64,000 nt of DNA from NCBI GenBank assembly GCA_030147925.1, contig JASBUK010000042.1, forward strand, positions 1-64,000. Reading direction: 5' to 3'. Both the position numbers and the translations under genes were made by a program. This document shows, piece by piece, positions 1,568 through 63,792 of the stretch. Position 1 is the stretch's first letter, and each line of letters opens with the position of its first letter. Below the pieces are notes generated by a model. It was given only the letters and a program-made list of their open reading frames with translations. It did no database searches and was not told the origin of the DNA. The stretch is from Trueperaceae bacterium (lineage in GTDB: Bacteria; Deinococcota; Deinococci; Deinococcales; Trueperaceae).

Positions 1568-3145
1568 ATGCCAGAAACCCTTAGCCGCAACTACGCCAAC
1601 CTTATTGGCGATCAAGAAGTCGTTAGCACCAAGAGCTTTGAGTCGCGGAGCTCGAGCAATCACACAGACATCATAGGTGTTTTCCCGGAAGCGGATAAAG
1701 CCCAGGTGCGTGCGGCTTGCCAACAAGCCCAAGAAGCCTTTGGGCGCTGGTCCAAAACCCCGGCACCCATCCGGGGTGAGCTGATTGGCAGTATTGGCGA
1801 GGCGCTGAGTCGCGAAAAAGAAGCGCTGAGCCGCCTGGTCACGCGCGAGATGGGCAAAACCTTAAAAGAAGCCCGGGGCAGCGTCCAGGAAGCCATTGAC
1901 ACTTGCCACTTCTTTCAGAGCGAGGGCCGTCGGCTCTATGGTCAGACAGTACCCTCAGAAATGCCCAACAAAGAACTGATGACCTATCGCCGACCACTGG
2001 GTGTGGTGGGTATTGTCACCGCCGGTAACTTTCCCATTGCCGTACCTAGCTGGAAGATCATCCCCGCACTGCTTACCGGCAATACCATCGTGTGGAAACC
2101 CTCAGAAGATGCCCCGGCGGTTGCCTATGCCTTTGCCAAGCTCATTGCGGAGGCCGGTGTGCCCGCCGGAGTGTTAAACGTGGTCTTTGGTGGCGGCAAG
2201 GATGCCGCCGGACAGTATCTAGTAGAGATGATGGACGAAGGCTTGCTGGATAAATTCGCCTTTACCGGCAGCACTGCGGTTGGTCGCTTAATCGGTGAGG
2301 TGGCCGGGCGCAATTTGTTGCACCCTACGCTCGAGCTCGGCGGTAAAAACCCGCTGGTGATCATGCGCGATGCCGATTTGGACAATGCCGTGTCCGGCGC
2401 TATCTTCTCGGCCTTTGCCACCGGGGGCCAGCGCTGCACCAGCGCGGGCAATATCATCATCGACGCATCTATTTACGACGCCTTCAAAACCCGTTTTTTA
2501 GAGGCCGTAAAAGCTATCAAAATTGCCGATCCGCTTGAACACGAAGACGTGTTCTACGGCCCCTTTATAAATCAGCGTTTCTTTGAGCGCTGGCTGTCTC
2601 ACTATGACTGGGGCCAGGAGGATGGCGCCACGCTGCTTTATGGCCAGGGGCGCATTAGCAACGACAACAAGCCTGCAGGCTTTAGTGGCGATGCTAGCGC
2701 GAGCTACTATGGCTGGCCCACCGTCTGGGAAAACGTAAAACCCGGTATGCGGCAATTCCAGCAGGAAGTCTTTGGCCCTACTATCAACTTAGTCAAGGTA
2801 AACGGCATCGCAGAAGCCATCGAAGCAGCCAATGCCGTCGATTATGGCCTCAGCTCGGCGATTTATACCAATCATCGCGAGTGGGCCTATCAATTTAAGG
2901 ATCAGATTGAGGCGGGCATGACCAGCATCAACAACACCACCAACGGCGCCGAAGCGCACATGCCCTTTGGCGGCGTTAAGGGTTCGGGCAACGGCACGCG
3001 TGAAAGCGGTGTCTGGGTGCTGGATAACTACACTTACTGGCACGGCGTCAACGATGACATCAGCGGCAAGTTACAGCTGGCTCAGATGGATACTGGCTAT
3101 ATAGGGGCCGGTTCAGAGGTCAGCGTCGGCAAACTTTTTGACTGA
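1568..3145 (+). CDS. NAD(P)-dependent aldehyde dehydrogenase
   Basis: A 525-residue soluble ALDH-superfamily enzyme that oxidises an aldehyde to its carboxylate. Signature residues are in place: Asn154 (TAGNFP), Lys177 in the cofactor site (VWKPSE), a Rossmann loop with FTGSTAVGR at 232-240, general-base Glu256 (LELGGK) and nucleophile Cys290 (GGQRCTSAG). The length is slightly above the usual 480-500. The overall pattern recalls ALDH7/semialdehyde dehydrogenase types, but the substrate cannot be assigned. A strong ribosome site (AGGAGGG) fixes the ATG at 1568. It appears to be a single-gene unit closed by the hairpin at 3167-3198, with the minus-strand manC gene converging on it. Confidence 0.93.
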   Translation: MPETLSRNYANLIGDQEVVSTKSFESRSSSNHTDIIGVFPEADKAQVRAACQQAQEAFGRWSKTPAPIRGELIGSIGEALSREKEALSRLVTREMGKTLKEARGSVQEAIDTCHFFQSEGRRLYGQTVPSEMPNKELMTYRRPLGVVGIVTAGNFPIAVPSWKIIPALLTGNTIVWKPSEDAPAVAYAFAKLIAEAGVPAGVLNVVFGGGKDAAGQYLVEMMDEGLLDKFAFTGSTAVGRLIGEVAGRNLLHPTLELGGKNPLVIMRDADLDNAVSGAIFSAFATGGQRCTSAGNIIIDASIYDAFKTRFLEAVKAIKIADPLEHEDVFYGPFINQRFFERWLSHYDWGQEDGATLLYGQGRISNDNKPAGFSGDASASYYGWPTVWENVKPGMRQFQQEVFGPTINLVKVNGIAEAIEAANAVDYGLSSAIYTNHREWAYQFKDQIEAGMTSINNTTNGAEAHMPFGGVKGSGNGTRESGVWVLDNYTYWHGVNDDISGKLQLAQMDTGYIGAGSEVSVGKLFD

Positions 3146-3166
3146 GAACATTTATTGAAACTTGTT

Positions 3167-3198
3167 CGGGATAGTGCCTAGCGCTATCCCGTTTTTTT
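3167..3198 (+). terminator. rho-independent terminator of the aldehyde dehydrogenase
   Basis: An 11-bp stem (3167-3177 with 3181-3191, one T-G wobble) with a 3-base loop and seven T residues at 3192-3198. It overlaps the last codons of the converging manC gene (stop at 3184-3186), so the 3' ends interlock. The minus strand has no T tract after the hairpin, so it acts mainly on the plus strand. Confidence 0.85.
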
Positions 3199-4230
3199 AC
3201 CCAAACGCGCATCCTCTAGTAGTTTCTTAATGTCTTGGGCGCGGTCTTTGCGCGTTACTAAAACCGTGTCGCCGCTTTTGGCAATCACCAAGTCTTCTAC
3301 GCCAATGGTTACAATCACGCTCTGCTCGTCTTCACAATAGATGATGTTGTTATGGCTATCTAAGTGAATGTGGTTGCCGCTCACGGTATTGGCTTCGCCG
3401 TTGCCCAGGTGACGCTCGACGGCTAGCCAGTCACCTAAGTCATCCCAGTCATAATCGGCAGGCACTACATAGGCCTTATCGGTTTTTTCCAGCACGGCAT
3501 AGTCGATGCTGATTTTTTTGAGCTTGGGGAAGACCTTAGCAATACGTCCTTGCCTAAAGGCGGGCTCGAGCTCTGCCATCAGCTCAGGAACATGCCGCTT
3601 TAGCTCGCTTAAGATAGTTTGGGTGTGCCACAGAAAAATACCGTTATTCCAGTAGTAGCCGCCTTGCGCCAGATAGCCTAAAGCCGTTGCTTCGTCGGGT
3701 TTTTCTACGAACCTGGCCACCTTAAAGCCGTCCGCTAGTGGTTCACCCGCCTGGATATAACCAAAACCGGTGGCCGGATAATGCGGTTTTATGCCCAGCG
3801 TGGTCAGACCATTAGTTTTTTGGGTCAATGTAAGCGCTTGACGCACGGCCTGCCCAAAGACCGGCACATTGCCCACGCGATGATCGGCGGTAAAAAGCCC
3901 CATGACGGCGTTATCAAAACGCGCACTTATCTCCAGCGCGGCTAGGGCCACAGCCGGGGCGGTGTCTCTACCCACGGGCTCGAGCAGTAGATTCTCTGTT
4001 GGTAAATCAGGGAGTTGCTGCCTTACCAAATCGGCATAGCGCTCGCCGGTGATGACAAAGACTTTATCCGCGCCGCCGCAAAGCGGCCAGAGCCTATCAA
4101 AGGTGGCTTGTAACAGAGTGCGCCCCCGGCGCTCTAAATCCAAAAACTGCTTGGGCTTATCTTCGGTGGAAATAGGCCAGAAACGCTGGCCGCGCCCCCC
4201 GGCCATGATGACGGCCACAAAATCTGACAT
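3184..4230 (-). CDS. manC: mannose-1-phosphate guanylyltransferase
   Basis: A 348-residue nucleotidyltransferase predicted to join GTP and mannose-1-phosphate to GDP-mannose, a donor for surface polysaccharide. The N-terminal motif MAGGRGQRFWP binds nucleotide. FVEKPD, the Trp-Asp-Asp WDDLGDW and an LLEPVGRDTAP-type stretch are all typical. It lacks the C-terminal phosphomannose isomerase domain of the long bifunctional ManC/AlgA enzymes. The open frame extends 32 codons upstream, but those residues are not family-like, and the ATG at 4230 follows AAGGGGG at normal spacing. It lies downstream of uppS in the same direction, and its 3' end overlaps the terminator of the converging gene. Confidence 0.9.
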   Translation of the reverse strand: MSDFVAVIMAGGRGQRFWPISTEDKPKQFLDLERRGRTLLQATFDRLWPLCGGADKVFVITGERYADLVRQQLPDLPTENLLLEPVGRDTAPAVALAALEISARFDNAVMGLFTADHRVGNVPVFGQAVRQALTLTQKTNGLTTLGIKPHYPATGFGYIQAGEPLADGFKVARFVEKPDEATALGYLAQGGYYWNNGIFLWHTQTILSELKRHVPELMAELEPAFRQGRIAKVFPKLKKISIDYAVLEKTDKAYVVPADYDWDDLGDWLAVERHLGNGEANTVSGNHIHLDSHNNIIYCEDEQSVIVTIGVEDLVIAKSGDTVLVTRKDRAQDIKKLLEDARLGKKTG

Positions 4231-4303
4231 GCTTACCCCCTTATACCAAATTGATTTAACAGCATCATAGTTTGAATCATCTAAGGATACGCTCTCATGC
4301 GCG

Positions 4304-62894: not shown

Positions 62895-62897
62895 GTA

Positions 62898-63266
62898 ATG
62901 ACTAACTCTCTAAAATTTCGCATGTTTAAACCCGGGCAAGACTTTCCGTCTTACGTTGCTTGCTTGAATGCCATTTGCGGTCACAAAGGCATCTCTCAAG
63001 AAATTATGAAAGTTGAGCTAACACCCATTCCGTTTAAAAGCCGAATTAACTTCGGCTTTTTAATGCGAGTGGAACGAGGAGAATCGGACCGAGTGCCTTT
63101 CATAACGCTTAAGGAATTAATCGGATTCAACATAAAAGAGCAAATCAATATGTTGTCTGAGTTTGACTTTGAGACCGCTCTTTTTGTTGCCGAGATTGGG
63201 AACAAAATTGTCCGATTTGAGCTTGAAGAACACGAATTAGGCTATGCTCTGCTTATCGAATCGTGA
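62898..63266 (+). CDS. conserved-looking hypothetical protein
   Basis: 122 residues, no family recognised. It is mixed alpha/beta, with an N-terminal KFRMFKPGQDFPSYVACL, a central VERGESDRVPFITLKELI and a Glu-rich end (VRFELEEHELGYALLI). It starts 3 bases after the carboxylase stop with no separate ribosome site, so it would depend on the upstream gene. The base composition is more AT-rich than the carboxylase. The pattern of an intact frame over its whole length supports coding, but nothing more. Confidence 0.5.
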   Translation: MTNSLKFRMFKPGQDFPSYVACLNAICGHKGISQEIMKVELTPIPFKSRINFGFLMRVERGESDRVPFITLKELIGFNIKEQINMLSEFDFETALFVAEIGNKIVRFELEEHELGYALLIES

Positions 63267-63294
63267 AAAAAGGCTTTGGTTACGTCTTGGCGTT

Positions 63295-63792
63295 TTAACG
63301 CTCGAGCAACGGCAACATTAGTTGCGTTAACACGCCTGCAATAATCGGCAAAACAAGAGAAACGACCACGCGTATCCCGGTTAAGCGCCAGCCATAAAAA
63401 CCAACTTCTAAGGGCAGACGCAAGATAGAGAGCGTGGCAAAGGAGGTGGCGTAGGTCATGAGTACGCTGATGCCTACCCCTGCTTTGTACAAAGCAGCAA
63501 TTAGCGGCAAACCGATGATGCTGCCACCTGGGGTCAATATGCCGGCTAGCCAGGCTAAGCCGATGCCGCGCCAACCCGAGGAATCAGAAAGCCAGCGCTC
63601 AACCACATTTTTGGGCAGTAGTGTTTCGGCAAAACCAGCTATAAGCATGGCGATAACCAAAATAGGGAGAAAACGCAAGAGTTGTTGCACTGAGTTGCGC
63701 CAGCCAAGGTTAAAGGTCTCCTGGCTTTGCCAGAGTGCAAGACTCATTAGCACTGCTAGGGTAAAAAAGAGGATGATAGCCGTGACTTTCAT
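63295..63792 (-). CDS. half-size permease (DUF318/ArsP_1-like)
   Basis: 165 residues with four or five helices. [19 protein letters not shown] and [19 protein letters not shown] resemble the repeat unit of DUF318 permeases (YraQ-like), which are normally about 300 residues with two such halves. Only one half is present, so it would need to dimerise, or the second half has been lost. Its ATG overlaps the stop of the PEP-utilising gene as ATGA, so the two genes are linked. Confidence 0.65.

Follow-up and report, generated by a model that had tools for sequence, protein, structure and literature searches.

The DNA analyzed here (the window) comprises the first 64,000 nucleotides of contig JASBUK010000042.1 from a Trueperaceae bacterium, and its commonest 8-mer is GCTCGAGC, a palindrome examined below as a highly iterated palindrome (HIP). 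Fifty-one exact copies are present, the first at 1650–1657 and the last at 63,300–63,307, compared with a mean of 1.10 and a maximum of 4 in dinucleotide shuffles, in close agreement with an earlier note on this DNA that had put the count at about 50 where about one was expected. Twelve of the copies carry extended flanks and read GGCTCGAGCC; these are the GG...CC-flanked copies of which the note had seen a few. The excess extends to the whole genome (2.98 Mb), in which GCTCGAGC occurs 2,625 times (880 per Mb or 0.88 per kb, ~40 times chance) and the reversed word CGAGCTCG 136 times. Whereas the genome-wide figures are word counts, the analyses of expectation, reading frame and spacing used sampled stretches of ~400–414 kb (L001–L020, L112 and the window). 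With sites masked, 357 copies were observed in 414 kb and 8.9 expected, so that the comparison of count with expectation, proposed earlier as a check for the whole genome, upholds the enrichment in this sample.

The hexamer at the core of the octamer, CTCGAG, occurs 3108 times in the genome and its reversal, GAGCTC, 798 times; in the ~400-kb sample GAGCTC matches its expectation (110 versus 114). The spacing of GCTCGAGC is near-random (mean 1.05 kb, coefficient of variation (CV) 0.84), the exception being a single 15.45-kb gap. Two other GC-flanked palindromes, GCTTAAGC and GCTATAGC, are ~2-fold enriched in the same sample, and CGGCCG is almost missing from it (11 versus 223).

Within called genes the sites fall in all three frames, encoding Leu-Glu (214), Ala-Arg (66) or Ser-Ser (34), and gaps between genes also hold copies, confirming the earlier description of copies inside genes in various frames and outside them. 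Shuffling of synonymous codons among genes yields 11.5 ± 3.7 copies of GCTCGAGC, compared with 317 seen, and codon use is therefore not the cause of the excess. Taken together, the dinucleotide and synonymous shuffles show that the enrichment is caused neither by codon or amino-acid use nor by base composition. Octamers that differ from the site by one base, counted with sites masked, occur at 0.63–0.87 of expectation when the mismatch is at positions 2–4 and at 1.76 of expectation when it is at the outermost base; the rarest near-site, GCACGAGC, stands at 0.14. Had the word once been selected and then decayed, neighboring words would be left in excess, and the lack of such an excess argues against this history.

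The site-free block of the window

The copies in the window lie in two segments. The first (1650–11,902) contains 11 sites, which start at 1650, 2329, 3564, 3978, 5412, 7558, 8466, 8589, 9048, 11,334 and 11,895. The second (27,347–63,307) contains 40, which start at 27,347, 28,021, 29,201, 29,808, 30,757, 31,192, 31,639, 31,757, 32,479, 32,529, 32,556, 32,727, 34,870, 36,615, 36,679, 40,920, 41,587, 42,369, 42,681, 44,108, 44,325, 45,660, 45,827, 47,187, 47,611, 49,938, 50,022, 51,873, 52,745, 52,804, 53,118, 53,657, 54,235, 55,589, 57,957, 59,480, 60,209, 60,251, 62,051 and 63,300. Between 11,902 and 27,347 there is no copy of GCTCGAGC, just as had been noticed for the stretch from ~11.9 to 27.3 kb, and the next-largest gap in ~400 kb is 5.4 kb. 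The probability of the 15.45-kb gap is ~4 × 10⁻⁷ for one gap and ~1.5 × 10⁻⁴ after 335 gaps are taken into account.

The block without sites (11,903–27,346) encodes an O-antigen ligase, glycosyltransferases, hexapeptide acyltransferases, a sulfotransferase, a flippase, a CysNC-type adenosine 5′-phosphosulfate (APS) kinase, a 3′-phosphoadenosine 5′-phosphosulfate (PAPS) reductase and an inositol monophosphatase. With these genes and a G+C content of 34–53%, it has the appearance of an acquired island for surface polysaccharide. Its overall G+C content is 42%, and this AT-richness lowers the expectation for GCTCGAGC; it contains 4 CTCGAG and 38 TCGA, none of them with G...C flanks, and its 24.4–26.9 kb part, at 52% G+C, has no CTCGAG at all. 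The earlier idea that the palindrome tells ancestral from acquired DNA fits this 15.4-kb island, and its scope is that single island.

Two further features were observed in and around the island. In a 218-residue open reading frame (ORF) within it (22,609–23,265, minus strand), the N-terminal NAD domain of a UDP-glucose/GDP-mannose dehydrogenase (PF03721) is fused with a partial APS kinase (PF01583), its C-terminal half; the ORF is either a rearrangement remnant or a chimera. HepT/HEPN-like proteins (PF08780; PF20797), typical of nucleotidyltransferase–HEPN toxin–antitoxin modules, flank the island on both sides, at 8254–8649 and 27,445–28,209.

The hexamer CTCGAG among relatives

The comparison set consisted of 111 relative genomes of the same order, a phylum-wide selection amounting to the same number; lineages are cited by name or by our family (f) and genus (g) labels. 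The core common to these genomes is the hexamer CTCGAG and not the octamer, a shared feature that is beyond the reach of the one window in which the octamer was first seen. CTCGAG is strongly enriched in Meiothermus (genus g25 of family f4, from its named loci), in some Trueperaceae, and in families f5 and f2. The counts of CTCGAG and GAGCTC are ~7000 and 1200 in Meiothermus, 12737 and 802 in G017, 21,868 and 25 in G045, and ~27,000 and 4–15 in four f5 genomes. In Thermus (ratio 1.02), which we take to be genus g20 of family f4, and in g28 they are ~1:1, without enrichment. Flank preference differs as well: our genome and the g2 genomes favor GCTCGAGC, the Meiothermus and Thermus samples favor CCTCGAGG, and f5 follows no clear rule. 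One 20-kb sample from the Thermus-like genus g20 (L032, genome G039) is enriched in CCTCGAGG (20 versus 2), though CTCGAG is not iterated genome-wide.

In f5 and in genus g24 of f2, CTCGAG reaches 30–65 times its expectation, or 5–9 per kb, and 24–35 of the 52–63 other palindromic hexamers tested fall below 0.2 of expectation, compared with ~1% of non-palindromic hexamers. For f5, with 24–35 of 54–63 such hexamers below this level, it would be too strong to speak of an erasure of almost every other palindrome. The palindromes so reduced in these lineages (L033, L034, L036, L038 and L239–L248), some of them to zero, include TTCGAA, TGGCCA and GAGCTC. Three genomes of genus g23 in family f3 (G050, G061 and G062; L237, L238 and L235) carry an XhoI-like endonuclease gene (PF04555), and their CTCGAG content is about half that of sister genomes without the gene.

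Relatives tend to keep their sites at the same positions, and clearly do so in f5, in f2 and in the Thermaceae apart from Thermus. In aligned rpoB/rpoC, 40–57% of CTCGAG sites are shared within f5, compared with 14–31% of all hexamers; the corresponding values are 49% and 20% for G040–G052, 40% and 14% for G040–G048, 80% and 26% for G045–G049, and 59–87% and 42–71% for Thermaceae other than Thermus (Meiothermus pairs, 59–81% and 42–70%). Between Meiothermus and Thermus there is no excess (12% of CTCGAG sites versus 27% of all hexamers), and our genome shares 2 of 7 sites with G009, which are small numbers. At Leu-Glu pairs common to both genomes, CTCGAG is retained in 79–82% of cases in f5 and Thermaceae and in 39% in Trueperaceae, compared with 0–42% for other spellings. 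Within f5, Leu is spelt CTC in 81% of cases before Glu and in 21% elsewhere.

Candidate methyltransferases

Profile searches of our genome detected no C5 methyltransferase of PF00145 and no N6/N4 methyltransferase of PF01555. The sole candidate from PF00145, PF01555 and PF07669 is one PF07669 gene, here called A1, which lies outside the window (contig C57 of genome G000, 4471–6147, minus strand) and encodes a solitary gamma-class N6-adenine methyltransferase of 558 residues. It stands alone between dnaG and V-type ATPase genes, in a neighborhood that is syntenic in the Trueperaceae genomes G001, G005, G014, G016 and G017 and partly so in G021; no partner ORF adjoins it, and no XhoI endonuclease (PF04555) was found in the genome. 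In PADLOC, the best match of A1 is PDLC03267; a second enzyme, MX, matches PDLC03313. MX is a full-length methyltransferase of the PaeR7I/XhoI family, and PaeR7I and XhoI recognize CTCGAG. A relative in Paracoccus is followed directly by a 'PaeR7I family type II restriction endonuclease', and in G012, which has both A1 and MX, MX precedes a broken PF04555 XhoI gene. A1 has no full-length, family-level similarity to the M.PaeR7I/M.XhoI family; it is a distant homolog of MX, with a profile alignment over most of the length (hhalign 98.4%).

Each of the 18 Meiothermus genomes has one of the two enzymes and never both, A1 in 14 and MX in four (G047, G056, G071 and G082), and no endonuclease lies beside either in this genus. 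A1 and MX thus look interchangeable, which is the main reason for assigning CTCGAG as the target of A1. Synteny of the MX locus across these four genomes makes one replacement more probable than four. Enzyme and site also go together in Trueperaceae, in which the octamer ratio is 1.3–51 in the 10 genomes with A1 or MX and 0.6–2.5 in the 27 without, except for G008 at 38 (P = 2 × 10⁻⁵ at the genome level and 0.006 at the genus level). What supports the earlier suggestion of a methylation site is comparative genomics: the solitary A1, its swap with an MX of the PaeR7I/XhoI family, and this association.

Homologs of A1 in Acidobacteria, Planctomycetes, Chloroflexi and Proteobacteria often have an adjoining second ORF, which is missing at every Trueperaceae and Thermaceae A1 locus examined and is possibly a restriction endonuclease. 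The ~250-residue proteins of this partner family (L113, 11,578–12,336, and homologs) contain invariant D and K residues, and their fold is predicted with confidence. The partner ORF has no Pfam match, aligns with the XhoI family at only E = 0.012, and gave an AlphaFold model (predicted local distance difference test score 88.6) with no Foldseek match below 1e-3; it perhaps represents an undescribed type II restriction endonuclease family.

Interpretation and comparison with known systems

The best explanation of the whole, to which we give a probability of about 0.6, is an independent HIP with a CTCGAG core that is methylated by a solitary enzyme and kept genome-wide. GCTCGAGC would be a HIP of the same kind as HIP1 of cyanobacteria, independent of it in sequence and lineage. 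A solitary N6-adenine DNA methyltransferase would act on its core, with CTCGm6AG as the probable product and A1 as the candidate enzyme in our genome. Selection and/or biased repair would maintain the methylated sites at ~1 per kb across the inherited genome, most likely because the mark shows which strand is the old, self one, or which DNA is the cell's own, in a process that spans the genome, for example mismatch or break repair; DNA acquired recently would have yet to gain its sites. Methylation of the sites is likely, judging from the genes, and we infer that A1 methylates CTCGAG, that methylation is the reason the sites are kept, and that the mark has a role in repair or self-marking. A genome-wide mark of strand or self, best known from methyl-directed mismatch repair, would agree with the density of 0.88 per kb, the deficit of near-sites, and a methyltransferase that is solitary and inherited vertically.

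Several results weigh against this explanation. The candidate search covered three families and not PF02384 (Type I) or PF02086 (D12), and the count over 18 Meiothermus genomes overstates the evidence, since the swap was probably a single event. Among Trueperaceae, G008 is enriched without A1 or MX (rpoB was also not found in G008, so the genome is incomplete), and four genomes with A1 are only weakly enriched in the octamer (ratio 1.3–2.4). When all 31 genera are taken together, A1 or MX has no significant association with the hexamer ratio (P = 0.17), because f5, f2 and g29 are rich in CTCGAG without a recognized enzyme: they have neither A1 nor MX, except for a distant MX relative in G048, and no shared methyltransferase was found in them by PF00145, PF01555, PF07669 or cluster comparison. 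Some HIP1-rich cyanobacteria likewise lack a recognized enzyme (Elhai, PMC4390886). The 5–9 sites per kb in f5 and f2-g24 exceed the one per kb of the published repair model, and CTCGAG is not specially depleted around A1 homologs in other phyla, as it might be under a restriction system with this specificity. For the wider group we are more tentative, and put at somewhat under even odds the proposal that CTCGAG across the Truepera–Thermus group is a selected, methylated mark that has survived methyltransferase replacement and is the one sanctioned palindrome of f5 and f2.

The scarcity of near-sites (down to 0.14 for GCACGAGC) beside a 40-fold enriched site would also be expected from a site-specific drive, in which methyltransferase-coupled repair turns near-matches into the site without any benefit of the sites themselves, by a logic like that of the very-short-patch repair of Vsr/Dcm. 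The hugely variable enrichment among relatives agrees with such a drive, and Elhai's model for HIP1 is of the same type (PMC4390886). Nevertheless, we consider it unlikely: site positions are conserved over long distances, which selection explains too; near-sites are mildly enriched in f5 (1.2–1.5 of expectation); and no repair gene has been identified, a MutH or Vsr partner not having been sought. A word for DNA uptake and self-recognition in natural transformation, as in Neisseria and Pasteurellaceae, would account for ~1 site per kb in our genome and for an acquired-looking island without sites, and relatives in Thermus are naturally competent. It is nonetheless improbable, because a perfect palindrome has no orientation and Thermus, the competent model genus, is unenriched (1.02); moreover, the density in f5 is far above that of known uptake words, and the link to a methyltransferase is left unexplained.

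About as hard to credit is a relic of restriction–modification, in which methylated sites are merely tolerated and their excess stems from codon or mutational bias. The broken XhoI-like gene in G012 points to past restriction at CTCGAG, and in the three g23 genomes that carry a complete XhoI-like gene CTCGAG is about half as frequent as in their congeners; tolerance, however, cannot yield a 40-fold excess, codon use is excluded by the synonymous shuffle, and GAGCTC stands at expectation. A signal for replication or segregation under the control of methylation, like the one proposed for Nocardia CTCGAG clusters near dnaA (PMC4752239), has in its favor that orphan CTCGAG methyltransferases with a dnaA association are known and that A1 adjoins dnaG, but it is equally remote, and the earlier suggestion of a segregation site likewise finds no support, as spacing is near-random throughout genes (CV 0.84) and G056, G012 and G067 show no CTCGAG cluster at dnaA/oriC.

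The octamer excess, its independence of codon use and the conservation of positions place GCTCGAGC among the HIPs, and the best reading is a real, strong HIP system outside cyanobacteria, second and independent. No HIP for this group was found in the open-access literature searched, and octamers as frequent as HIP1 occur in very few bacterial genomes (Elhai, PMC3497702). If true, the independent-HIP reading would provide a second origin of HIPs, with an extreme form, that could be used to test selection against biased repair as their maker; what cyanobacterial HIP1 is for has been an open question since 1995. As Meiothermus and Truepera include culturable species, methylation state, enzyme deletion and mutation spectra are measurable.

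Among known systems, Dam/GATC and Dcm of Escherichia coli share the solitary, vertically kept methyltransferase and genome-wide sites, but the sites of Dam and Dcm/Vsr are not iterated to the degree of GCTCGAGC. PaeR7I/XhoI systems share the CTCGAG core, a full-length family member in MX and, in G012, a decayed XhoI endonuclease gene; in contrast to them, our genome has no XhoI-family endonuclease, its A1 is no more than distantly related to M.PaeR7I, and its sites are hugely over-represented rather than avoided. The orphan methyltransferase of Nocardia (Blow et al. 2016, PMC4752239) is likewise solitary and has the same hexamer; its sites cluster near dnaA, whereas those described here are genome-wide, with no origin cluster in three relatives.

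The closest parallel, which the earlier note had drawn and which is well supported, is HIP1, whose word, GCGATCGC, does not occur in the window. HIP1, the alternate HIPs of Elhai 2015 (PMC4390886) and GCTCGAGC are all GC-flanked octamer palindromes around a hexameric methyltransferase core (for CTCGAG a putative one), and the density of 880 per Mb falls within the 300–2700 per Mb of HIP1. Both have copies inside genes in all frames irrespective of codon use, partial extension to a 10-mer, deviations mostly at the outer bases (a tolerance outside the hexamer reported for HIP1 in PMC4390886), conserved sites, and solitary methyltransferases of different types that swap while the site stays, with some rich genomes lacking a recognizable enzyme; to these can be added absence from the one apparently acquired island of the window. 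Phylum and sequence differ, f5 and f2 iterate the core alone at 5–9 per kb with many other palindromes purged, and the enzymes of HIP1 make 5-methylcytosine or N4-methylcytosine in the hexamer, whereas the candidates here are gamma-class N6-adenine methyltransferases. If adenine is the methylated base, the GmeC-dependent repair model is inapplicable as written, and the present case would argue against methylated-cytosine repair models. It also speaks against the idea that sites settle at one per kilobase. As an independent case, it separates the general features of such systems (a GC-flanked palindrome, a methyltransferase core, swapped solitary enzymes, conserved sites and few near-sites) from the cyanobacterial ones.

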